DNA from: a virus
Strand: one strand, 5' to 3'
Virus record (IMG/VR): IMGVR_UViG_3300001460_000075
Span: 1 to 36,702 of that record
Length of the DNA stretch: 36,702 bases
Shown: piece by piece, positions 1,102 through 16,054 of the stretch
How positions within the stretch are numbered: the stretch's first letter is position 1
Layout: the number at the start of each line of letters is the position of its first letter
The notes under the pieces: generated by a model
Told to the model about the DNA's origin: nothing
Database searches by the model: none
What the model saw: the letters and a program-made list of their open reading frames with translations, nothing else
Made by a program: the position numbers and the translations under genes

Positions 1102-2034
1102 TCATTTGGTACCATAAGTTTTGTGTCTCGGTGGAAGGTCCGCCCTTCGGCGGATCCTGGGTGGATCCACCTCAATAGTAAGAGGTGGCCGATTTGGCAT
1201 GGACCGGCCAGTTACCTCGAGGATCGCACAATTTGTTTCTTCATGTTTAGATAAAGATAAAATTGAATCCGGGAACCTGGCAAAGGCACCGGATCCGGAG
1301 CCTCGGTCAATGTGATCCTCGTTGCCCATCTTACCTTTCCGGTAATGATGACTTAGGCAAATGGTGGCCCCGGTTTGTTTGCCAATCTTGTTGAGTTCAA
1401 CCATTAGATTCTTAACGCAACTGGCGGAATTTTCGTCAAACTCACCGGCCTCAAGTAAATAGATTGGATCCAGGATAATCACATCCACATTGCCAATTTT
1501 CTCAAGTCGATGCTCCAGGCACTCAGTTAGGCTTTGCATGGTGTAGTTACACATTCTTAAGGACCACAAAAACAAATCATCTGGAGGGGCATCCAGGCCG
1601 TTCGCCTGGCTTATTCTCCACAACCGGTCGATAGCATCATCCTTGTGTAACTCCAGGTCGATCATTAGGACCTTACCCTTCTCGGTGGCCAGGTCACAAA
1701 AGTTTTGCCCCGAAGCAATAGCGGTGGCCATGGTCGCAAAGAACCAGGACTTTCCCATCTTACTGGGGGCCGTTAACATTACATTATCGCCATGTCGAAA
1801 AAGGCCGTCAATTTGTACCTTTCGTTTTATTAACTCATAGGCTTTCGGAAATTGTCCGCCGGATAAAATTGGTGGCAATTGTGGAAGTTTTCCCAGTACA
1901 TCAAAATTATCACCGACAAGCATCGGTGGCAATGCCGTTAAGGATGGTTCAATATTAATTGGCTCGAGAGCAACATCATCAACCCCAACCAGGTTGGCAA
2001 CACTACCGGCAAATTTAAAGGCATCATCTTGCAT
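1102..2034 (-). CDS. RepA/AAA_25-type replicative helicase-like ATPase
   Basis: This is a RecA-fold NTPase of the RepA/AAA_25 family, the hexameric helicases of some plasmids and phages. Numbering from the ATG at 2034 (310 residues), the Walker A motif APSKMGKS is at about 89-96. A conserved acidic strand VLMIDLEL lies near 122-129, Walker B VIILDP at about 185-190, and an SHH sensor motif follows ATICL near 228-230. The frame can be extended to an ATG at 2061, but the 2034 start has an AGAGG sequence about 10 bases upstream and overlaps the primase gene less. It follows the primase directly, and the pair probably makes up the phage replication initiator and helicase. No DNA polymerase gene is visible, so host polymerase is probably used. 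Confidence 0.85.
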   Translation of the reverse strand: MQDDAFKFAGSVANLVGVDDVALEPINIEPSLTALPPMLVGDNFDVLGKLPQLPPILSGGQFPKAYELIKRKVQIDGLFRHGDNVMLTAPSKMGKSWFFATMATAIASGQNFCDLATEKGKVLMIDLELHKDDAIDRLWRISQANGLDAPPDDLFLWSLRMCNYTMQSLTECLEHRLEKIGNVDVIILDPIYLLEAGEFDENSASCVKNLMVELNKIGKQTGATICLSHHYRKGKMGNEDHIDRGSGSGAFARFPDSILSLSKHEETNCAILEVTGRSMPNRPPLTIEVDPPRIRRRADLPPRHKTYGTK

Positions 2035-3025
2035 AATAAATAATCCTCTGTTCTTTGCCATTGTCTTCCCGGAAAGCCCAGGGCATACGGACCAACTGGT
2101 TGGGACGGAATACGGCCGGATCCGCCCCGAGGCGGATACCCATATTCATAAACTCCTGGATTTTCTCCGGGTCCTGGCCTTCACATTCATACCAGGCATG
2201 TAAACTTTTATTCCCGGAGTGAACTACCATTTTTAATGGCAATATTTTTTTCAACCGGGATATTAATCCGGCCTGGAGGTCGAACCGGTATTTGATTCCT
2301 TCGGCGTCACTCTCGTAAATAATATATTTATGTACCTGGATGTTTTCCTTTACCCGGCCACCGTCCGGATCCTTGAGAGGGCAAGGGCAAATGTAACGGA
2401 CCAATTCGTTTCCGGTTGGGTCGATAAAATTGCCCATGCTCATGTTCGAGGTATTTACAATTACACCGGAACTCATTGGTTTATCGGTGAGAAATATGTT
2501 TCTACCTGGTCCATATAAATCCATTAGAACCTTGACCATATTATTAGGTTTAGAATCACTTGACGCCTCCAGGGCGTCCAGTGATACCGTGTTCTGATAT
2601 TCTGCTATAAGTGTCGTATCGATGCCAATTTTTTGTTGCCTGGGTCCATTGTTAACTTTCTCGTCAAAGGCCCACTTGATAGCATTTTCAATTTCACTGC
2701 TCTGCAATCCCCGGCGTTTTACTGACTCACTTGCCTGGTACATTATATCCCTGGCCGTCTCGGCCTGGATCCCGGACTCAAACAATACTCGGGCCACCAT
2801 CAAAATAATTTCATGGTACCCGGCTTTTCCATCAATACCCTGGCGTTCAATTCCCTTCAACCGTTTGGTTAATTCCTCTTTTCCTATTACCGCCATTTGG
2901 TCACCCTTCCAGTCCCAAGGACAATCGAAATTATTCTTATGAGGATCATCCCATAGGTTCGCAAGGGCCAGGCATGTATCTGTTTCAATTTCTTCATCGT
3001 AACGACTCCAATTTTCCAAGTGCAT
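2024..3025 (-). CDS. Primase of the archaeo-eukaryotic type with PriCT-like helical region
   Basis: The 333-residue protein appears to combine two parts. Residues about 45-125 form an alpha-helical region with alternating hydrophobic residues resembling primase C-terminal (PriCT-like) domains. The C-terminal half carries motifs I associate with archaeo-eukaryotic primases: an acidic ESD at about 238-240, the SGNKSLHAW motif at 270-278, and NQLVRMPWAFR at 309-319. In this family the acidic residues bind metal and the SGxKSxH motif contributes to nucleotide binding. Two cysteines (CPC, about 213-215) may be structural. Its C-terminus overlaps the helicase start, indicating a coupled primase-helicase pair. 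The assignment rests on motifs, not overall identity, so the exact subfamily is unsure. Confidence 0.72.
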   Translation of the reverse strand: MHLENWSRYDEEIETDTCLALANLWDDPHKNNFDCPWDWKGDQMAVIGKEELTKRLKGIERQGIDGKAGYHEIILMVARVLFESGIQAETARDIMYQASESVKRRGLQSSEIENAIKWAFDEKVNNGPRQQKIGIDTTLIAEYQNTVSLDALEASSDSKPNNMVKVLMDLYGPGRNIFLTDKPMSSGVIVNTSNMSMGNFIDPTGNELVRYICPCPLKDPDGGRVKENIQVHKYIIYESDAEGIKYRFDLQAGLISRLKKILPLKMVVHSGNKSLHAWYECEGQDPEKIQEFMNMGIRLGADPAVFRPNQLVRMPWAFREDNGKEQRIIYYAR

Positions 3026-3191
3026 TATTTATTCCTAACACTGATATGGTTAATGCCTCACCGGCCGGAATGCCGGTGTTATGCATGTACTGTATTTCTC
3101 TAGTGATATTTTTTAAATACTTCTGCAACAATGCCAGGTCCCGGCGTTCGCCGGCACCGTCACGGTCCCATATGAAATGTAAGTCAATCAC
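2994..3191 (-). CDS. Small hypothetical protein (65 aa)
   Basis: The frame starts at a GTG at 3191 that overlaps the stop codon of the upstream 80-residue gene (GTGA) and ends at 2994, 32 bases inside the primase gene. The product begins with a valine codon then IDLHFIWDRDGAGERRDLALL, and continues as a mainly helical sequence. The same frame stays open to 3383, but that extension runs antiparallel to no known domain and only shadows the 80-residue gene, so I reject it. The function is not recognisable. The location inside the replication cassette suggests an accessory role in DNA metabolism. Confidence 0.55.
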   Translation of the reverse strand: MIDLHFIWDRDGAGERRDLALLQKYLKNITREIQYMHNTGIPAGEALTISVLGINNALGKLESLR

Positions 3192-3430
3192 CTTCTTTTC
3201 TTCCGAGACCGGGCCACCGGCCGGAAGGACTCCTTGAACCAGGACTCCCATGCCAGTGCCACTTCCCTCGCCTCGTTCCGGCTCAAGAATACCGTCCCCA
3301 ACTGGGGGAACGGTATTGACCTGGATAACCTCGGCCCGATTGGGGATGCCCCCATCTGCCGGTTGTAATATAATATCTGCCATTTTTCGCCTTTCCTTAC
3401 TACAACTGCGGTTGCATCAATTTGACTCAC
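3188..3430 (-). CDS. Small hypothetical protein (80 aa)
   Basis: The product has a beta-rich N-terminal half (WQILYYNRQMG and VFLSRNEAREVALAW are visible), a tryptophan-containing helix and a very basic C-terminus ending in RSRKKRR. The basic tail suggests nucleic acid binding, but no family is recognised. The start is a GTG at 3430, 14 bases inside the end of the RecB-like nuclease gene. The end overlaps the next gene by GTGA. This tight packing supports expression as part of the replication operon. Confidence 0.55.
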   Translation of the reverse strand: MSQIDATAVVVRKGEKWQILYYNRQMGASPIGPRLSRSIPFPQLGTVFLSRNEAREVALAWESWFKESFRPVARSRKKRR

Positions 3431-5575: not shown

Positions 5576-5779
5576 ATGAAAATAAAACGATTGTCAATGA
5601 CTTTTAATCCGGATGCTTATGCGATCCTGGAGAAAGTCAGCAATGAGTTGGGGATTTCTCTAAGCCAGGCAAATGCTATATGCCTTGAGTCACTCAACGA
5701 AATTGCAAAGGCAAATGAACTGCCTAAAAAGAAATTAAGCCCGAAGGTTAATTTTATCTACACAATACTAAAAAATTAA
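5576..5779 (+). CDS. Ribbon-helix-helix-like regulator, rightward
   Basis: This is the only complete plus-strand gene. From the ATG at 5576 it encodes about 67 residues: MKIKRLSMTFNPDAY supplies a basic strand, and ILEKVSNELGISLSQANAICLESL gives two helices, the overall shape of a CopG-type RHH protein. The frame extends to a TTG at 5558, but that start lies in the putative operator. The gene diverges from the RHH gene at 5309-5497. Its stop codon interlocks with the stop of the minus-strand gene at 5776, so the two transcripts converge without a spacer. By position it is the best candidate for a lysogeny-maintenance repressor, but direct evidence is lacking. Confidence 0.62.
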   Translation: MKIKRLSMTFNPDAYAILEKVSNELGISLSQANAICLESLNEIAKANELPKKKLSPKVNFIYTILKN

Positions 5780-5982
5780 TTCTTTTCAGTATCTTCAAAA
5801 TCAATCTCATCAAATATTGATTGAGTCACCTTATCGAAATCACCCTCGGGTGATTCGAGGCCCTTCTGCATTGCCGATGAAAATGCCATAGCATCATTCG
5901 CCTCGTCCTCATTTTTTGGTATTAAGATATCTTTGGACTGGGACGGATTTTCCGAGTCGTTTGTATTCTTTTTTGCTTTCAT
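5776..5982 (-). CDS. Small acidic hypothetical protein (68 aa)
   Basis: The product is hydrophilic, basic at the extreme N-terminus and strongly acidic towards the C-terminus (FDEIDFEDTEKN). The start at 5982 overlaps the end of the giant gene by 74 bases in another frame. A GGAGG sequence lies 15 bases upstream, which is far for initiation, and an inner ATG at 5892 would remove the overlap. It is the last gene of the structural operon and its stop interlocks with that of the convergent RHH gene. No family is recognised. Reality of the gene is likely but not certain. Confidence 0.45.
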   Translation of the reverse strand: MKAKKNTNDSENPSQSKDILIPKNEDEANDAMAFSSAMQKGLESPEGDFDKVTQSIFDEIDFEDTEKN

Positions 5983-8900
5983 TAAATTTATCTATTGCCT
6001 CCGTTTTTGTGTATTGCGTTCCATCCTTTTTTAGAAATCGTGATGGATCCTTTATGGTAGCATTCCATTTCTTCATGCTACGGTCCGCCCGGTGATAGTC
6101 AATTATTTTGACGCCGTCTTTTAGTTTTCTCGGTTCCTGGCCGTCCGGGAAAAATATATCCATAGGTTCATCAAATGAAGACTTAAAGGCACCGTCATCA
6201 CTGGTCCAATTGCTCTTGCCATATAAATCTTTTTCACCGAACCAGGCCACCGCCTGGAGGTCATCCGGATTCTTTCCCATTCGTTTTGCCACTTCAGCAA
6301 ATACGATTTGGCCCAGGGCAAAGTCTACATTACCAACCGGTCCTTCCGAGGCCGGTTGGATCCGCCATTGCTTTTCACCTTCAAACATTTTACGGCGTAA
6401 CATTCTACCGGCCCACACATCAATTGTGGCCTGGAGTGTCCGGCCGGTAAGGTTGCCGGCAAAGTTCGGAGTCTTGGGACTCTCGGACATAGTTAACCAG
6501 TTCCCGGCGATTACTCGCATAACCTGGCCGGAGTTGGCATTGTATTTTTTTCCGTTTGCTCGGAGTGGAATTAAAAGTTTTCTTACTTGCTTACCATTGT
6601 GATCCAACCCCTTAACATACCTGGTTAATAGTTGTCTGTTAAGTTGATCAGAGTTGCGGTAAGTTGCTTCCCGAACAGTACCGTTTTTTAACTTACGCCT
6701 GGGCGTCATGGTCTCGGCCCGGGTTGCCATTTTTTTCTTCACCATGAACTCGGCAATAGAACCATTTTTAAAATGGTTATAACCTTCCATGTAAGTCTTT
6801 ATAAGATTATCGTAACTACCGTTTTTATAGAGTGTCAGTGCCTCCCTGGCTTGTATAAAATTCGTTTCCACCGGAGTCCGGGCCGAGGTGGCTCCGAGGA
6901 GTTGTGAAAATATTTCATGGTCAGTACCGAGTGCGGTTGCCAATTTTTTTCTCATGCGAGAATACCAACCGTCTCCGGCCTTGATGGCCGGATCCTCCAT
7001 CCAGGTAGTTATTTCTTGCTCAACACGGTTGGCCGTTTCATCCAGGGCACCGGACTCCATAATCTCTCGAACCCTTGCTTTTTGTGGTCCACTTAGGACC
7101 ACATCCATGCCATCAATGTCGTACTGAATTTTAGATGATTTCTGCCCGGCGTAACTTTGCACTACCGGAGAGTTTTGCAAATCATAATCCACTACCTCAT
7201 ATTCCGGATTCATCTTAGGATTACCGTCTGCATCCAGGACCGGGTTGTCATCATCGTCCAGGACCTCTTTCCATTTTGGCTTGCCGGATTTCTTATCGAC
7301 TGCCTGGGTTACCGGTACGGCCTCGGAATGCCTGGCGTTTGATTGCTCGAGTAACTGCAAGAGTGGATGAGAATCGTCTACGCCTAGCAATGGTGCATCC
7401 GGATCGTCCGGCATAAACATTCGTAATTCATTTTGCATTTTTTGAAAATGCTTTACGCCTTCTACGGTGTTTCGCCAGTCGGCCCGAACCTTCGGATCCT
7501 GGCCAACTTTAGCCGGGAAAAGGTCCATTGTCTTTCTTGGCAATGAATGAACTTTTTGGTTATAAATAAATGAGCGTATTCCATTCCCTTGGACATTCAT
7601 GTGATGATCAGAAAAAACAGTATCTTTTCCGGCAACATCTGCATAAGTCTCCCAAAAAGAACTATAATCGTTATTAGCGTAGGCCTCCTTTGTTATCGGT
7701 ATTTCAATTTCAATTTGGCGGACGATATCATCTCTTGTTGTGGGTTTATGTTTAATTTTAAACCCGGCGTCCTTAAATGCCTGGGACTCGAATTGTTTTA
7801 CAATTGCATCGTATGTCTGGGTTTCTTTAGTTTTCTTAGACATTTCATCTTTCATTGCATTGCCCACCCATTCGGCCCTTTCACTTTCCTTAAATAGTTT
7901 TCCTCTGACCAGGGTATTAAATGTTTCATTCATCATTTTCTCGGTATTTTCTACCATGTTCACTTTAAACCTGGCATCTACAACTATCCTGGCCGGTGTT
8001 ATATCTGCCTCAACTACCTTCATTGGTTCCAGGCCAAACTTTTTTCCGACTTTGTTAACTCGTTTAACGAGTTCGTTGTCGTAAAACTGACGCATCGGTT
8101 GAGCGTCTGTATCCAGGCCGGTGGCCTCTATTTCAAATTTGTCCGGGCCAATATTTTTGGCCCCTCCATCCTTGACAAATTTCTTATAATTACGGCCGTC
8201 AATTAACATAGCGAACTCATCTTCAGTCAAGTTCTGCTTGTTTACTTTCTCATCTTTTACGATGACCTCTCCGCCTTTGAGTTCATTGACTTTCCCGGAC
8301 ATAAAATCCTCCAGGTTGCCAAGTGGCTCAAGTGTATCCGGGTCCATTGCTCGTAATGTGTTGAATCCGGCCCTCCGGGTTTCTGTATCAACCCCGGCCC
8401 GAGGCGATATAATAACATCTTCACCGGAACCAGTCCTGACGAATATGTCGTTAAGTGTCAGAGTTACATCGTTGTCTCTAACCGGGGTCATCAAAAAATG
8501 CTCTTTAAAAAATTCATTATTTCTGACGCCCTTGGCCTTCATCATTCCACGGCCGGCCACTCGCTTTTTATAACCTATCATGTTGTATCGAGTTTTACCT
8601 TTGTCATCAACAAAGGTTGTGTACTCGATGCCGTCTATGTGTTCTGACGGTTTCATGGCCTTGTGAATGTCTTCACCCATGAGGATACTGTAACGCTCAT
8701 GTCCGTCTCTTACGGCGTTGTGAATGCTTCTCTTGATCCCCGGTTCAACCCAATTCTTGTAAGACTCAATTCCAGTAGCGTATTTACCTACCTCTTTGGC
8801 GTCCTTTACTTGTTGCAAAACCATTTCTTTCGTCTTGATGGTACTCTGTAAACCTTCAAATTTATCTCTAAATTTAGACCATGTTTGCTCAGAGGCATTA

Positions 8901-11900
8901 TCAAATATATGCGTACTCGGTAAAAATCCATCAGCATAACCATTGCCGTAACTCTTGCCCATTGCCCTCATAAATGCCCGGTCCATTGTTGTGGCGTATG
9001 CTCCATGGTTGAGGTCAAATGTATTAATTTGATTACCCATCGGTACGGCCGTTCCTACTTGCGGATGCCGGGCTTTTGTTCCTGGAGTCATGTTGACTAT
9101 ATCCGCCGGGCCGATAACCGGTTTTGCTCCCGGACTATTTTGGTGGACTACCGGTTTCGGTGGCAGTGGAGTGCCATCGTTTTGAGTAAATTGACCATCA
9201 AAAGTCATCCTCTCATATGCTTTGTCTATTCCATATTGCAGTTTTTCCGCAACCAGGTCGTTTAACTCTCCAAGTTGAGTAACAGTATCCTCCTCTTTCA
9301 ATTGATAAAGGTAGTCTAAATCTTCAATTTTTTTCTGATCAATTTTCACTTCAGACTTGTACCCTCGTTTAGGATTTGTGACTGGGTCAAAATTCTCTTT
9401 CGGATTGATAGGTTTCCTGGCATTTTGATGAGCGTCACTTTGTAACTCGCCTAAAATATATTCGTTGGATATTTCCATGTTTCCATCTTTATCCCGAATG
9501 TAAGTATGGCCTCTTTCGGACCTTTCATGCCAAACAACATTTTCCACATTTGAATGATCGCTATTCCATTTTTCGCCTCTCCAGGTATCATCCGAAAAAG
9601 CCTCATAGTGATATTCCAGTTTCGGCATATCACCATCATTTGCGGATGGAAAGAATTCCTTATATCTTTGGCCCTGGTCATGCTTTGATATTTTAGGGCC
9701 ATGATTTGAAATGGCCTGGAGTAAATCCGCTTTCGTGGCCTTGTCTTTATTATCAAACAAACGGTCCGCAATTTTAGTATGCTTGGCATACCTGGCCAGG
9801 CCACCCTTCTCCATCATGTTTTCAAATTGTTTCTTTTGGAATTTCTCGGGCAATTTGTCATACAAAGTATCGAGAATTGGATCCCCCATGCCGTCATTCT
9901 TTTCTCGCATGTCAAAATCAACTAACTCAAAGATTTCTTCAGTTGACCTAATGTTTTCTTCGGGCGTCAAACTCATTTCCATTTGATCCGGCATCATCAT
10001 CCCTTTGTTTTGCTCCGGGAAGATTGACTGAAATTTTCGGCCCTCGAGTTTCATTATGGCCTCGGTCCTGGTCTTGTACCCGGACTCCAGGAAAGGCTTG
10101 AAGTCCTCGGATCCTATCTTTTGCCAAAACTTTTTTGCTGATCCCTGGATATCCTTAATCCGTAATTCATTATCTAACGCATGGTTAAGCATGGAGTGAA
10201 CTACAGAAGTGCCCAGGCCCTTCTTTTGCGTCCCTTTATTGATTCTAATATCAATAAGGGAATCGAAATGGCCTTCGTCAGTTAATGAGGCCACCACATA
10301 ACCGTCTGAATCTGTTACCGTTTTACCCTGGGCATTCATCTTCTTATAATTTTCCATGTCGAAGATTTGGAACTTTGCCCGGCTAATAGGATCCTTGCTC
10401 CGATGAGGTGCCATTCCTTCATGCATTGGCCCAAACAAAATCACTTTGTCATTGTGATAATAATTTAATCCGAGTGGGCCGGGGGCCATTTGAAATGGTT
10501 TATTGTCACCAGGATCCGGCATAAATCTAATGTCACTACCTTGCTGACCGGTCACTGATGACATTCGTTTGCTTGGCAACTCTTGTCCAAAAAGTCCGGA
10601 GACTTTTCCAAACGCCCGGTCCTTACTTATAAACTTTCTTTCCTTATTTTGGTCACTGATAAGTTTAACTTTATTTGTATCAAAAACCTGGACGATATCA
10701 TTGGTCTCGTATGCATCGAATCCGGCCTCAACCAGGTCCTCAACGGTGATTTGTTCCATTGGTTTACCAATGGCGTCCAGGTCACTCTGATTGCCTAATC
10801 TGAACGGTGTTTTTGCATTAACTGCAACGGTCAATGGTTTTTGTTTTGCGTCTAAAATTTTCTGTTCACTTAATGCCGTTTTTCTATTTTTAAAATATAC
10901 ATGGCCGGGGTATGCTGACCACTGGGATTGATTTCTGATTTCCATATCTCCCCTGGTTCCGATCCCCTCAAGTGTACCGTCATATGTCATGGCATCTGCC
11001 CCAATCGGTCCGACATGGTAAAGTTCATCCGCCTTCCACTTGTCACCGGATTTTGTAGCAAACGCCGGTGAACCGTACTCCTCTTCATCTGCAATAAATT
11101 TTTGGAAGTACGGTGAATCCTGGCCCATGGTTTCCCATTCTTTTCTTGCTCGTTTTGCAATAGCCTGGTCCTGGTTCTGCAACTCGCTTAACTGGCGTCC
11201 TTGCTTCATGGCCCTACGCATTGACGGATCCGGCATTAACATGGCCCCAGGTTCCTGGTGAGTACCTGGGTCCCAACCAAACTCCTGAATGGAATTTCCT
11301 TCAGAATATAATTCTTTTGCCTTTATTGACTTACTTAAAACTCGAGTCTGCCCCTGGATATATCTATCACCATGGTCCCTGGCGTACTCTTCAGTAATCG
11401 CAACCCAGTCGCCTGGATTAATTTCATCCACAAACTCCGGTACGGCCCGGTAAACCATTACCTCGCCGTCTGGATCACCTTGCATCTTCTTAATGACTGA
11501 TATGGCCTCCTGGTCAACCCTTGGGTTATCTATATCATTGCCGTAATATCTAAGGCCCTCGGGGCCGTAGATATCCGGGAACGAACCGTTTAAATTGTCT
11601 AGTGTATTACCACTTGCTTCCGGATCGAATCCAGGTGCCCGGTGAACGCCATGGTAATCGGGCGATTGTGAATTTTTTTCCTTTGCCAGTTCTCGGTTTA
11701 TGATTCCATTTATGCCGTCTCCTGGATCCGGCATCATCATAGGTTCCCTTCCGGCCCTTTGCTCGGACGCCATCCATCGAATGGTTAGTTCCGGTGAATG
11801 CTTTACGGCCTCGTAGGAAACTTCTTTACCTTGCTCCATGGCATCCGAAATTATTTTTTCATGCCCTTTTTCTATGTCGTAAAAATTACGGTCTTTTGCT

Positions 11901-14900
11901 TTTTCGTGAGGTTTTAATTTTGTGGCCTCAGATAACGAAAGATAATAATTCTGTTGCACCTCGAGGCCGTCATAATCTCCTTTATTAGCCCTACCAAAAG
12001 CATCCTTTAAATCGCTTAAAGAAAGTTGGTGGATTTCTTTAGAGCGTTTTGCCATGTCCGCTTGTGCTTGCTTGTACAAATCTGTAGAGTCCGGCATCAT
12101 CCTGGTATTATCCGGCATCGGTTGTTTAGGCATAGGCATTTGGTAGTTCTGTATCGCCCTGGGATCCGTGTGCATCCCTTCGCCAAACTCATCCATGCTT
12201 GCAATTCGGTCCAGTCTCCTGGACCTGGTGACGGCCATGCGTTGAGACTTCTTCTCACCCAGGCCGGCAAGCAGTGGGTTAAGTTCTATTTGCCTCTTGT
12301 TTAACGCACCAAAACTGGCGTTTAAAATCTGCTTTTGCTCCGGTGTAAACTTTGAATCCTTGCCACCGGTTAAGACATTATTCTTGTGTTCTTTTGTGAA
12401 CTCAATCAAATCGTTTTGAATCCTCTTGGCCAACTCAACCGGGTTGTCGATTCCAAATGCATTTTTTGCATTTTCAAGTCGGCCCTTGGTGCTTAATAAA
12501 TGTTGTACATTCTTGGTGATTTGCTCCTGGGAGAATGTATCGACTATGATATTTTTATCCTTGGTCACCGTGATTCCGTAGACCAGGGTATCCCTCATCT
12601 CACCTTTAACCGTCTTGTATTTTCTTCCACTGGCCCCGAGTCTTCCACCGCCCATGGCTTTGTAATACATCATTAGAAAACGATTACTCGGAGGACCGTC
12701 AAAGTCCTGGCCGGCCATATCGGGGTTGTAGTTTGGGTTCTTCGTTCGGTTACCGAAAGTATCATAGATATACTCCGGATTAATGCTCTCGTTATTGAAG
12801 ATTCCTGGTTGTTGTCTCATCCCGGACCTGGATGCTCTTCTCAATATATCCAACTGCACCGGATTGAAAGAGTCGGTCAGTTCGTTTATGATTCTTTCGT
12901 CCAGGAACCGGCCGGATCCTCTTAGGGATCCGTCCTTAGTCTCATACAATGTAATGTGGCCGTCCTCTGCCGAGTCAGAGTATTTTTGAATTAAAGTAAT
13001 TACATCATTTGCCAATTGTGCATTTTCTGCGTTCTGCTCTTTTGGCATTTTCAATTGAACCTTGCCGAGCATATCAGTTGCTAGGGTGCCATCCGGATTA
13101 GTTTTAAAAATACCCCCGTTATTGAAATGTTCTATGGCGTCAAGATTACCGTAGTCCTTCGGGCCAACCTCAAAATCATTCGGGTTTGTGTCCTGGAGCA
13201 TAGACAAATCACCCTCGTTCTTTTTTATTGCCTCCGAACTTTTGCCAATTGTCCGGCGTTCGTATTCACCAATTAGACGATCCACCTCTTTGTTGAATCT
13301 TAATGAGTCCTTACTTTTATTTGTAAAAATCATTTTCGATCCGTCTATTGTGACGGCGTTACCTATAGAGTGGTTGGCTTGTCTGAAAAATTTAGGTGTT
13401 AAAAGTTTATCACCCAGGTTCACCAGGGCACCATCAACGATTGATGCCATTTTATTGGCGTAGGGGCCACTCATTGCCGTCTTCCTGGTCTTACCAGTAA
13501 GAATACGGTGTGCCATCATCTCGGCAAAGTATTCGTCCCCTATCATCTCGGGAATCTCCTGGTAATTACGAAGTGTCCCCGGATCCACATTGGATTTTTT
13601 TAACTTGGCCACATACTCATCCTTGATGGCCTGGAAATGTGCATTCGTTTTATACTGGTCATGCCCATATTTGTCTTTAACCATTATGGGTTTCTGATTC
13701 TCGTCCCTTTCCGTAAACCATCCAGGTCTATTCTTGCGAACATCGCCGAAAAGAATTTCCCGGACATTGTAGTGAAGTCCATGCGACTTCACATGATGAC
13801 CGATTTCATGTGCTAAGATTTGGCCCAAAACAGAACCGCCTTCTTTGCGAACTTTGGCCATATTGATTTGCACAACGCCGTTCCCCTCCGGGTCAACATA
13901 TTGCATCCCGGGAGTGACCTTATCATCATTGATGAATTTAAGTTGCATGTCCGGGAAGTAAGTACTGGCCTCGGCAATTGCCGTTTTTTCTTCGGGGAGC
14001 AATCTCCTAAATCCTTTTAGTTGGGCCGGACTTAAACTTTTCTCATATGCCAGGAGGTCACCCATTTGCCTTTGCTTCAATTGCCCGGCGTCCTTGAACC
14101 TCATAAGTTGGCCACCAACCCCGGCAACCCCAATGATAGGGCCACCAATTGCAAAGCCTCCGGCCATGCCTTCCGGGCCACCGGTTGCATAGCCTATGGC
14201 CATTGGCAATGATAGGCCCTCAACGGTGGCATGGATGCCACGGTTCATAATTGAATTGCCTGGGACATATTCCATGCCCTTTGCAATGAATCGTCCAAGT
14301 CCAGGAACATTGTTCTTGGGAACTTGCCTGGCCTGGTTTAAAATTTTATAGGTATCGAGGAAACTGTAATTAAACGCCTCGTTGTCAAACAATGAGCCGG
14401 CATAAGTAGGATTGTCTGCCGGAGATGCTCCAAGTGATTTCCAGTATGGCATCGTTCGTTGCATCTCCAGGGACTGCCTTCCAAATACCTTTGCGGTTCT
14501 ACCGACTTGCTCGAGGAACCTGGGGCCGAGCATCAATGCAACGCCGGACCCCATTGTTGTGTAATTTTCGTTGTAACCAAGGGCACCTATGGTAAGTATC
14601 GATCCGCCTTTAACGGCGGTATCGAGGGCCAATCCGGCACCTTCTCGAGTAGTGGCATAGCCACCCTTCATCAAAAAATTAATCGCCGTTTCCCTGGGTA
14701 ATGATTTAAGGAACTCCATTCCCCGGCCGGCCCACTCGGCCGATGCTCCTAATTTTTCTACGGTCTTACCAACAATGGTCTGCGATAATCCGGCCGGTTT
14801 TGGTGGCCTTAATTTAGTCGCTAACTTTTCAGTTATCGCCAAAATATCTTTGTCGGCCTGGGCGATTTGCTTGCCCAGTTTTGTTTGAATGCTTTTTACT

Positions 14901-16054
14901 TTTGCCTCGCCGAGGTCTCCGGTAATTCTACCGAGTGTATCCTTGGCCAGGTCGGCCGTCAAAAGTGTTGCAGTAGTCTTTAACTGATGAGCCTTTTTTA
15001 ATTCTTCCTGGAGTACCCGAACGGATCCTCGCCTTATAATATCCTTACCTCGCATCACACTGGCCGTGACGCCACCGGTTACATAAACATCCGGTTGTAA
15101 TACCATGGACATGGCCATTGCTTTGGCCCGATCCGGTTCGATCCGGTCCATTGCCAGGTCGTTATATGTCTCAATGTCCCCAACAAATTCCGCAATCGTT
15201 TGGGCACCGCCCTCTATTGCATTTATAGATTTTGCCTGGGCTTGCATGTACTCAATTTGAGTATCAAGTTGAGCGTCAGAGTGATCATTCCAGTTCTGAA
15301 AGTACGATGGAATCAGTAGGCCGGGGGATTTCATTGCCTTGACGCCGAAGTCACCAATCATCTTATAACCAACAAAAGCCTCGGCACTGGCCTGGTAAAG
15401 GTCTGCATTATTTTTATTGGTCCCATACTTGTATGCCTTGGACGCAATAATAGCGTCCAGGTTTTTATTCATGGGAACCTGGAATTCGTTACGCAATTCG
15501 GCGTAAGTGTCGTTTACATTAAACCCATCGTCCCTGGCCCTTCCGACTAACTCCAGGGCCATCCTGTCGGCCCTGGATAAAACATCATCCGGGAAATCTT
15601 TTTCTAATTTAGAAGTATCTGCCGGGCCGTGTGTATATTGGTTAAAGGTACCGAGTTGGTTATTTATCACATTACCAACATCAGTGACCAAATTGTCCGG
15701 TTTTTTAAACTTAGTGTAAGAACCTGGTGATTGTTGAAGTAACTTAAAAAGGTTGTCTTGTTGTCTCTGCCCCTTGCCTGACATTGCGTCCCATGCACCT
15801 TTGCCAAATTCCTTGAGGACCGTTTTTGCCGTATCCCAAAAGTCAACATCGTGTTCAAAGTATCCGTTCCGTAAGGCGTCTCTTACGACTGCCTTGTTTT
15901 CCTCCGGGGCATCATCGGAGTACAAGCCTAACATTTGATCCTGGGGGACCCTGGTCTTTAAATGCTCATAGATGGTTTCGCTTGTTGGCGGTTCACTAAG
16001 ATAAACCTCCTCTTTAAAATCAAGAGGACCGGATTCAATTGTATATTTATTCAT
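5909..16054 (-). CDS. Giant polyvalent internal-virion protein (3381 aa) with zincin, ADP-ribosyltransferase and GNAT-like modules
   Basis: A single uninterrupted frame encodes 3381 residues, about 28% of the window. Residues 1-700 look like an internal virion protein with helical segments and hydrophobic glycine-rich stretches near 485 and 610-648. A zincin metalloprotease motif AHEIGHH follows (H749, E750, H753), with EMMAH near 845. An ADP-ribosyltransferase-like module spans about 1450-1600 (YRAVP 1535-1539, then GDWVAIT, ending FGWDPG). A second spans about 1675-1800 (ELYHVG to VFDTNKVK). A GNAT-like acetyltransferase motif QKKGLGT is at 1943-1949. A QSD-type polyvalent module carries QSDAHQ at 2205-2210. 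A conserved phage module is near 3015-3260 (ATSART 3055-3060). MPD motifs separate modules. The gene follows other internal-virion genes directly, so I infer ejection into the host. Domain calls rest on motif recognition. Confidence 0.85.
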   Translation of the reverse strand: MNKYTIESGPLDFKEEVYLSEPPTSETIYEHLKTRVPQDQMLGLYSDDAPEENKAVVRDALRNGYFEHDVDFWDTAKTVLKEFGKGAWDAMSGKGQRQQDNLFKLLQQSPGSYTKFKKPDNLVTDVGNVINNQLGTFNQYTHGPADTSKLEKDFPDDVLSRADRMALELVGRARDDGFNVNDTYAELRNEFQVPMNKNLDAIIASKAYKYGTNKNNADLYQASAEAFVGYKMIGDFGVKAMKSPGLLIPSYFQNWNDHSDAQLDTQIEYMQAQAKSINAIEGGAQTIAEFVGDIETYNDLAMDRIEPDRAKAMAMSMVLQPDVYVTGGVTASVMRGKDIIRRGSVRVLQEELKKAHQLKTTATLLTADLAKDTLGRITGDLGEAKVKSIQTKLGKQIAQADKDILAITEKLATKLRPPKPAGLSQTIVGKTVEKLGASAEWAGRGMEFLKSLPRETAINFLMKGGYATTREGAGLALDTAVKGGSILTIGALGYNENYTTMGSGVALMLGPRFLEQVGRTAKVFGRQSLEMQRTMPYWKSLGASPADNPTYAGSLFDNEAFNYSFLDTYKILNQARQVPKNNVPGLGRFIAKGMEYVPGNSIMNRGIHATVEGLSLPMAIGYATGGPEGMAGGFAIGGPIIGVAGVGGQLMRFKDAGQLKQRQMGDLLAYEKSLSPAQLKGFRRLLPEEKTAIAEASTYFPDMQLKFINDDKVTPGMQYVDPEGNGVVQINMAKVRKEGGSVLGQILAHEIGHHVKSHGLHYNVREILFGDVRKNRPGWFTERDENQKPIMVKDKYGHDQYKTNAHFQAIKDEYVAKLKKSNVDPGTLRNYQEIPEMIGDEYFAEMMAHRILTGKTRKTAMSGPYANKMASIVDGALVNLGDKLLTPKFFRQANHSIGNAVTIDGSKMIFTNKSKDSLRFNKEVDRLIGEYERRTIGKSSEAIKKNEGDLSMLQDTNPNDFEVGPKDYGNLDAIEHFNNGGIFKTNPDGTLATDMLGKVQLKMPKEQNAENAQLANDVITLIQKYSDSAEDGHITLYETKDGSLRGSGRFLDERIINELTDSFNPVQLDILRRASRSGMRQQPGIFNNESINPEYIYDTFGNRTKNPNYNPDMAGQDFDGPPSNRFLMMYYKAMGGGRLGASGRKYKTVKGEMRDTLVYGITVTKDKNIIVDTFSQEQITKNVQHLLSTKGRLENAKNAFGIDNPVELAKRIQNDLIEFTKEHKNNVLTGGKDSKFTPEQKQILNASFGALNKRQIELNPLLAGLGEKKSQRMAVTRSRRLDRIASMDEFGEGMHTDPRAIQNYQMPMPKQPMPDNTRMMPDSTDLYKQAQADMAKRSKEIHQLSLSDLKDAFGRANKGDYDGLEVQQNYYLSLSEATKLKPHEKAKDRNFYDIEKGHEKIISDAMEQGKEVSYEAVKHSPELTIRWMASEQRAGREPMMMPDPGDGINGIINRELAKEKNSQSPDYHGVHRAPGFDPEASGNTLDNLNGSFPDIYGPEGLRYYGNDIDNPRVDQEAISVIKKMQGDPDGEVMVYRAVPEFVDEINPGDWVAITEEYARDHGDRYIQGQTRVLSKSIKAKELYSEGNSIQEFGWDPGTHQEPGAMLMPDPSMRRAMKQGRQLSELQNQDQAIAKRARKEWETMGQDSPYFQKFIADEEEYGSPAFATKSGDKWKADELYHVGPIGADAMTYDGTLEGIGTRGDMEIRNQSQWSAYPGHVYFKNRKTALSEQKILDAKQKPLTVAVNAKTPFRLGNQSDLDAIGKPMEQITVEDLVEAGFDAYETNDIVQVFDTNKVKLISDQNKERKFISKDRAFGKVSGLFGQELPSKRMSSVTGQQGSDIRFMPDPGDNKPFQMAPGPLGLNYYHNDKVILFGPMHEGMAPHRSKDPISRAKFQIFDMENYKKMNAQGKTVTDSDGYVVASLTDEGHFDSLIDIRINKGTQKKGLGTSVVHSMLNHALDNELRIKDIQGSAKKFWQKIGSEDFKPFLESGYKTRTEAIMKLEGRKFQSIFPEQNKGMMMPDQMEMSLTPEENIRSTEEIFELVDFDMREKNDGMGDPILDTLYDKLPEKFQKKQFENMMEKGGLARYAKHTKIADRLFDNKDKATKADLLQAISNHGPKISKHDQGQRYKEFFPSANDGDMPKLEYHYEAFSDDTWRGEKWNSDHSNVENVVWHERSERGHTYIRDKDGNMEISNEYILGELQSDAHQNARKPINPKENFDPVTNPKRGYKSEVKIDQKKIEDLDYLYQLKEEDTVTQLGELNDLVAEKLQYGIDKAYERMTFDGQFTQNDGTPLPPKPVVHQNSPGAKPVIGPADIVNMTPGTKARHPQVGTAVPMGNQINTFDLNHGAYATTMDRAFMRAMGKSYGNGYADGFLPSTHIFDNASEQTWSKFRDKFEGLQSTIKTKEMVLQQVKDAKEVGKYATGIESYKNWVEPGIKRSIHNAVRDGHERYSILMGEDIHKAMKPSEHIDGIEYTTFVDDKGKTRYNMIGYKKRVAGRGMMKAKGVRNNEFFKEHFLMTPVRDNDVTLTLNDIFVRTGSGEDVIISPRAGVDTETRRAGFNTLRAMDPDTLEPLGNLEDFMSGKVNELKGGEVIVKDEKVNKQNLTEDEFAMLIDGRNYKKFVKDGGAKNIGPDKFEIEATGLDTDAQPMRQFYDNELVKRVNKVGKKFGLEPMKVVEADITPARIVVDARFKVNMVENTEKMMNETFNTLVRGKLFKESERAEWVGNAMKDEMSKKTKETQTYDAIVKQFESQAFKDAGFKIKHKPTTRDDIVRQIEIEIPITKEAYANNDYSSFWETYADVAGKDTVFSDHHMNVQGNGIRSFIYNQKVHSLPRKTMDLFPAKVGQDPKVRADWRNTVEGVKHFQKMQNELRMFMPDDPDAPLLGVDDSHPLLQLLEQSNARHSEAVPVTQAVDKKSGKPKWKEVLDDDDNPVLDADGNPKMNPEYEVVDYDLQNSPVVQSYAGQKSSKIQYDIDGMDVVLSGPQKARVREIMESGALDETANRVEQEITTWMEDPAIKAGDGWYSRMRKKLATALGTDHEIFSQLLGATSARTPVETNFIQAREALTLYKNGSYDNLIKTYMEGYNHFKNGSIAEFMVKKKMATRAETMTPRRKLKNGTVREATYRNSDQLNRQLLTRYVKGLDHNGKQVRKLLIPLRANGKKYNANSGQVMRVIAGNWLTMSESPKTPNFAGNLTGRTLQATIDVWAGRMLRRKMFEGEKQWRIQPASEGPVGNVDFALGQIVFAEVAKRMGKNPDDLQAVAWFGEKDLYGKSNWTSDDGAFKSSFDEPMDIFFPDGQEPRKLKDGVKIIDYHRADRSMKKWNATIKDPSRFLKKDGTQYTKTEAIDKFNESKKEYKRLGKSVPVQRYLNTKK
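7406..12118 (-). repeat. Recurring Met-Pro-Asp junction motif in the giant protein
   Basis: Within the giant protein a short motif recurs at residues 1313 (MPDNTR), 1319 (MMPDST), 1439 (MMMPDPGDG), 1607 (MPDPS, preceded by ML), 1845 (RFMPDPGDN), 2019 (MMMPDQ) and 2881 (FMPDDPD). The copies fall between the recognisable modules rather than inside them. On the plus strand they appear as CATs followed upstream by TCCGG, often within GGATCCGGCAT. The spacing is irregular, which argues against a simple tandem repeat. Confidence 0.75.

Follow-up and report, generated by a model that had tools for sequence, protein, structure and literature searches.

The subject of this analysis is a giant gene in the window, by which we mean the whole 36,702-nucleotide stretch of the virus record IMGVR_UViG_3300001460_000075, and the short peptide that marks the joins between the carrier and the cargo modules of its product. 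The gene occupies positions 5909-16054 of the minus strand as a single open frame of 3381 codons without a stop, which bears out a sequence-only reading of the same DNA that had been silent on the strand. The motifs which that reading had placed in the protein, HEIGHH at residues 749-754, QKKGLGT at 1943-1949 and QSD at 2205-2207, were found in place. All features of the protein described below lie on the minus strand, and their window coordinates are given in brackets.

Searches with the DNA and with the whole protein returned no close relative among isolated phages, and a first scan of IMG/VR gave no match to the full protein. Using the major capsid protein (MCP), we found 20 related contigs, one of which (G015) carries a syntenic homologue of 3155 aa. 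Alignment of the N-terminal region added L040, L041 and L043-L045, and a scan for ADP-ribosyltransferase (ART) modules added more relatives. The conserved backbone, residues 1-1312 of the window protein (12119-16054), is homologous in G015/L042, L040, L041, L043, L044 and others at 22-40% identity, and contains a Gly/Ala-rich hydrophobic stretch (at about 630-650), the zincin and an 'ITKDGN' region. The homologues are alike from residue 1 to about 1310 (L045 is partial), and the kinds and order of their cargo vary. The layout is that of a constant carrier, which includes the zincin, joined to swappable cargo.

The claim that the HEIGHH motif (13793-13810) marks a zincin metalloprotease is well supported. 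H749, E750 and H753 are invariant in 16 diverged relatives, and a downstream ExFA motif, about 90 residues on, is conserved in the same set; its Glu, E841 of DEYFAE (13532-13534; invariant column E202 of alignment A5), is the predicted third zinc ligand. A search of the PDB with the zincin profile gave as its best match the M48 peptidase 3c37, with a weak E value of 0.006, followed by 4il3 (E=0.17), and Pfam M48 matched the window protein weakly (E=0.41). The embedded zincin is a candidate M48-like gluzincin.

We observed six copies of [MLF]MPD in the window protein, as against about 0.07 expected, and these stand at the carrier end and at every recognised cargo junction. MMPD at residues 1319-1322 (12089-12100) closes the backbone, MMPD at 1440-1443 (11726-11737) opens the first ART module (ART1), LMPD at 1606-1609 (11228-11239) separates ART1 from the second (ART2), and FMPD at 1844-1847 (10514-10525) separates ART2 from a GNAT-like stretch; the remaining copies are MMPD at 2020-2023 (9986-9997) and FMPD at 2880-2883 (7406-7417). 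The broader pattern [FYLMWI]MP is absent from the window backbone (residues 1-1312), and in five homologues it was found 0 times in the backbones and two to six times in each cargo. Counted as [FYLM]MP, the motif occurs in 19 relatives in 81 copies past residue 950 and in two within the first 950 residues, with the consensus [DN][KI]L[FY]MPA[S] among relatives, and the 29 other open reading frames (ORFs) of the window contain no copy of it. Ends of cargo homology blocks fall within 12 aa of the motif in 61% and 49% of cases, with null values of 30% and 23%, which is about twice what random placement gives. At the DNA level the MPD motifs are also near-exact repeats (ATGATGATGCCGGATC; window 9985-12103) with Pro always encoded by CCG, and this uniformity suggests recent copying within the window genome.

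The best characterised of the cargo modules is ART1, residues 1459-1599 (11258-11680), which matches phrog_2579 with E=4e-36. An AlphaFold model of the module, built from 47 homologues, reached a pLDDT of 85. Foldseek alone found no significant match to this model in the PDB, and PDB sequence searches with ART1 were likewise without a significant match. A second-look aligner (VIA list) returned nearly all ART-superfamily chains from the PDB, all with Z below 5, headed by KptA/Tpt1 (tRNA 2'-phosphotransferase) at Z 4.9 and including Vis, VIP2, MbcT and RES. R1536 and E1591 (R83 and E138 of alignment A9), catalytic residues of the R-S-E type, are invariant across the 47 sequences, and the Ser/Thr position is Ala in the window ART1. 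The model leads us to assign an ART fold to ART1 with moderate confidence. PHROGs names phrog_2579 'ParB C-terminal domain', and several phage records carry a like label, which may be misleading since the model suggests an ART fold.

ART2, an ART-PolyVal-like module at residues ~1610-1838 (10541-11227), was identified by motif-to-motif homology: residues 1607-1844 align end to end with modules in L044 (1570-1821), L101 and L102. The Pfam family ART-PolyVal (PF18760) did not match the window ART2 (1607-1844), and matches other modules in the relatives L041, L042 and L044. At the H-Y-D site the window has LYH, but its nearest homologues have LYY, that is, Tyr in place of the strand-1 His. Of the two ART modules proposed earlier, ART1 stands on a confident model with weak but consistent ART-fold matches, and ART2 on homology only.

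An AlphaFold model of ART2 together with the GNAT-like stretch had low confidence (pLDDT 40). The GNAT-like stretch itself, residues ~1918-1981 (10112-10303), scored 15.5 bits against Pfam Acetyltransf_1, below the cut-off of 20.7, and a PDB sequence search with it gave no significant match. The core of the QSD-type module, residues 2190-2230 (9365-9487), has the pattern E[LM]QSD.[HL]Q, which also occurs in the cargo of G015 and L043. The C-terminal module, residues ~2996-3292 (6179-7069), has homologues in L121, L125 and L127 and contains DUF7178 (PF23802) at residues 3171-3271, at 45 bits against a cut-off of 27; the conserved C-terminal module noticed earlier is thereby confirmed.

The boundary peptide extends to unrelated proteins, in which it takes other forms. 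Where the tail of an ART-PolyVal module was recognised among 113 non-redundant proteins from two scans, its flavour was S in 30 (IRFS), Q in 16 (ILYQ, LFQ) and MP in 10, with rarer letters besides. The Q-type sites LFQ-S and VYFQ-S resemble known protease sites with Gln at P1. Proteins with several tails mostly have one flavour throughout, and this uniformity within a protein runs across module families. The flavour of a second ART type, and of the edge upstream of it, is mostly that of the protein in which it sits (MP proteins have NYVIFDEADVQITDKLFMPA, a Q protein has NYVIFDDDAIEILNTFYQDQ), and the peptides ahead of AYHGTP modules are Q-type in Q proteins and MP, IP or HP in MP proteins. ART1, a third module family, is bracketed by RFSRR/QFSRR, ILSARDEDG/IQSARDEDG, MMPDP/LMPDP and similar pairs, and stand-alone ART1 proteins mostly stop shortly past the module, with no boundary-type peptide.

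These likenesses were assessed by permutation. Comparison of the ART tail with the upstream 55 aa scored 12.0 within the same protein and 7.86 (sd 0.38) after shuffling, with none of 20,000 permutations reaching the observed value, and the result held when MP proteins were left out (11.2 vs 7.8, 0/20,000). The two edges of ART1 scored 20.9 within their own protein and 14.7 when shuffled (0/20,000), which supports the bracketing only in part because other shared linker sequence (L173, L180, L211) contributes to the score. In L173 and L180, which are multidomain ART1 proteins, a boundary repeat of a different kind, CGTG..GGGFxxGNxCA, flanks ART1 on both sides.

In order to relate the flavour to the zincin, trees were made from 31 proteins of the Q and S flavours, each of which has one zincin, and the flavour was scored on the ART's own tail. 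On the zincin tree the flavour changes four times, compared with 10.3 times when shuffled, and none of 500 shufflings was as low; on the ART tree it changes nine times, compared with 10.1, and about 150 of 500 were as low. Trees built earlier under a simpler model, with all six flavours included, gave 11 changes on the zincin tree and 16 on the ART tree. Peptide flavour tracks the zincin tree and not the module's own tree. In addition, HExxH or HExxxH is present in 48 of the 53 complete flavoured ORFs longer than 1000 aa, the frequency in shuffled sequences being 8%.

The gene is preceded by a run of virion genes, the last of which, a 452-aa ORF, is followed by the giant gene at a spacing of 0 nt. 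This run includes the MCP (phrog_1328), a protein of 615 aa that weakly matches internal virion and lysin families, and one of 691 aa which aligns over its full length with an ORF that occupies the portal position in a relative. Downstream of the giant gene are genes for a primase, a helicase, an exonuclease and a Holliday-junction resolvase; the PHROG-matched genes on this side are those of replication and recombination, and a 68-aa ORF at 5776-5982 has no PHROG match. Primase and helicase parts at 1102-3025 are split over two overlapping ORFs, both of which match phrog_2597. The order in which the giant gene comes after virion genes (MCP/portal-type, SLT/internal-virion) is conserved in relatives. 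It had been described as sitting among internal-virion genes; it adjoins such a cluster but is not inside it, because it begins 0 nt after the virion run and lies ahead of the replication genes. At the matching position phage C75C1 (L047, 1-7576) has a giant protein in which a [TY]xLP[DE]F.V-like motif recurs about 14 times, tens of residues apart; as the repeat is of a different kind and no HExxH was present in the part read, this protein was not used.

Membership of the polyvalent proteins, as the earlier reading had suggested, is supported by the zincin, the ART-fold module, the further modules and a location at the end of the virion operon, an arrangement which relatives conserve. The class has 2-15 disparate domains in one polypeptide, and here we find a zincin, an ART-fold module, DUF7178, and the ART2, GNAT-like and QSD stretches; the gene is encoded by a virus and lies near virion genes, an order which its relatives keep. 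Given this gene context, it is reasonable to suppose that the protein is ejected into the host. The opinion that the combination of domains is unusual was not supported, because Iyer et al. 2017 (PMC5512222) treat its components as regular constituents of the class: zincin peptidases and ARTs, the latter the commonest protein-modifying domain, are listed for polyvalent proteins, and GNATs are 'typically' found beside ARTs. The protein adds a member to a known class, and what is new in it, a layout with a boundary peptide that the earlier reading had missed, is of more interest than the domain combination.

Based on these sequence comparisons, we propose that the protein is a polyvalent polyprotein, in which a constant carrier with an M48-like zincin is followed by effector cassettes bounded by a protein-specific peptide, the putative processing site; we judge this proposal to be as apt to prove right as wrong. 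The peptide is read as a cleavage site because it is repeated, specific to the protein, confined to junctions and variable along with the embedded peptidase, and a repeated specific site at domain junctions is one mark of a self-processing polyprotein. More tentatively, and with somewhat less than an even chance, there may be a private cleavage code by which each backbone zincin would read its own peptide (FMP-A/D, LFQ-S, IRFS-R and others), so that captured cassettes must adopt it. Processing of polyvalent proteins by zincins has already been predicted by Iyer et al., who cite phage P1 DdrB (PMC5512222).

Most likely the polyvalent protein would be synthesised late, together with those of the virion, and would be packaged into the particle and ejected along with the DNA. 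Cleavage at the boundary peptide or close to it, by the zincin or by some other protease that goes with the backbone, would set free the carrier, ART1, ART2, the GNAT-like stretch, the QSD region and the C-terminal module to act as separate effectors on host proteins. With the motif taken as the edge, the predicted products are the carrier (1-~1320), 1320-1440, ART1 (1441-1606), ART2 (1607-1844), the GNAT-like product (1845-2020), the QSD region (2021-2880) and the C-terminus (2881-3381). At L070, L052 and L162 an HExxH-type zincin lies in a nearby ORF and not in the flavoured protein, owing to a gene split or a frameshift, and these loci are a possible natural case of processing in trans.

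Among the alternatives, the one which fares best, though we still think it unlikely, is that the peptide is a structural or handling element that is never cut, either a terminal strand that docks a module on its neighbour or a tag at which the protein pauses or is recognised as it unfolds and leaves through the portal. A short, hydrophobic peptide at module ends would suit such a role, and ejected polyvalent proteins that stay unprocessed are known, the N4 virion RNA polymerase (RNAP) being an example cited in PMC5512222. However, one module family bears different peptides in different proteins, so the peptide does not belong to the fold of the module as such, and this alternative offers no obvious reason for the association with zincin type. 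It is distinctly improbable that the peptide is a roleless scar of recombination, left by DNA-level shuffling through short shared sequence, even though the ends of homology blocks coincide with the motif, all six window motifs use CCG for Pro with up to 16 nt of DNA in common, and L104 is similar (Pro is CCT in six of seven). Over 17 MP proteins the Pro codons of the motif match one another no more often than do those elsewhere in the cargo (53 pairs with the same codon where the null gives 44, p=0.10), which implies that the peptide is kept while the DNA varies, and no DNA word is common to the Q and S flavours and MP. As the sole cause a scar is unsupported across relatives by this codon test; the codons of the window and L104 are unusually uniform. 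It is very improbable that translation starts internally at the ATG of M-P and yields nested C-terminal products: every MP copy has the ATG, and pairing with the anti-Shine-Dalgarno (SD) sequence upstream of the window copies is slightly better than at other Met codons, but SD-like pairing is not enriched over six genes (p=0.18), which leaves the idea unsupported, and internal starts cannot explain the Q and S flavours because these lack Met.

Several observations weigh against the polyprotein proposal itself. The regular-expression classes of the motif were drawn up after seeing the data. Since some multi-tail proteins contain tandem ART copies, the uniformity of flavour is partly duplication. 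The ART tree is poorly resolved, with one starred branch in a 46-row tree and none in the Q/S tree, and signal is possibly hidden in it. As the zincin belongs to the backbone, its co-variation with flavour is ambiguous and may reflect only the backbone or the host. A zincin in cis is not always present, because five complete flavoured ORFs are without HExxH; a neighbouring ORF has one at a few loci. Finally, the N4 virion RNAP is packaged uncleaved despite having an MPTase, and ArdC and TraC1 are transferred at full length (both cited in PMC5512222).

What zincins do inside polyvalent proteins has been a matter of proposal since 2017, and a peptide legible in the sequence supplies predicted cut sites for them. 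The peptide is also an objective criterion by which the limits of unknown effector domains could be drawn in many phage proteins. Were the private code true, the sequence would be enough to predict all the cleavage sites and all the effectors released, and if distinct zincin specificities underlie the flavours, they would amount to a set of new sequence-specific proteases.

In the polyproteins of RNA viruses, a 3C/TEV-type protease cuts repeated short sites at domain junctions within the same polypeptide. The window protein is alike in having candidate sites at junctions matched to a protease of the same chain, and the Q-flavour sites look similar, but its putative processing would be by a zincin and not by a chymotrypsin-like protease, and it comes from a DNA phage. 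Polymorphic toxins combine a constant carrier with a variable effector cassette through a short junction peptide, for example VENN in CdiA. The split into carrier and cassette with a junction peptide is common to both, whereas the window protein has several serial cassettes, each bounded by the peptide, in place of a single C-terminal toxin, and a downstream immunity gene was not recognised. Phage P1 DdrB and DarA are packaged in the head and proteolytically processed, and DdrB has a C-terminal MPTase (cited in PMC5512222); the zincin of the window protein is internal and followed by many cassettes. The closest counterparts are the phage polyvalent proteins of PMC5512222, which are similarly large and multidomain, lie beside virion genes and have in common with the window protein a zincin, ARTs and uncharacterised domains, and perhaps a GNAT as well; text searches of that paper found no mention of a boundary peptide, a protein-specific flavour or a link to zincin type. 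Literature searches and look-ups in the text of the 2022 NAD/ADPr survey and of the MuF toxin paper likewise gave no boundary peptide, although its absence from the open-access papers searched does not prove novelty. To the general proposal of zincin processing by Iyer et al., the present analysis adds a candidate site and its proposed code.

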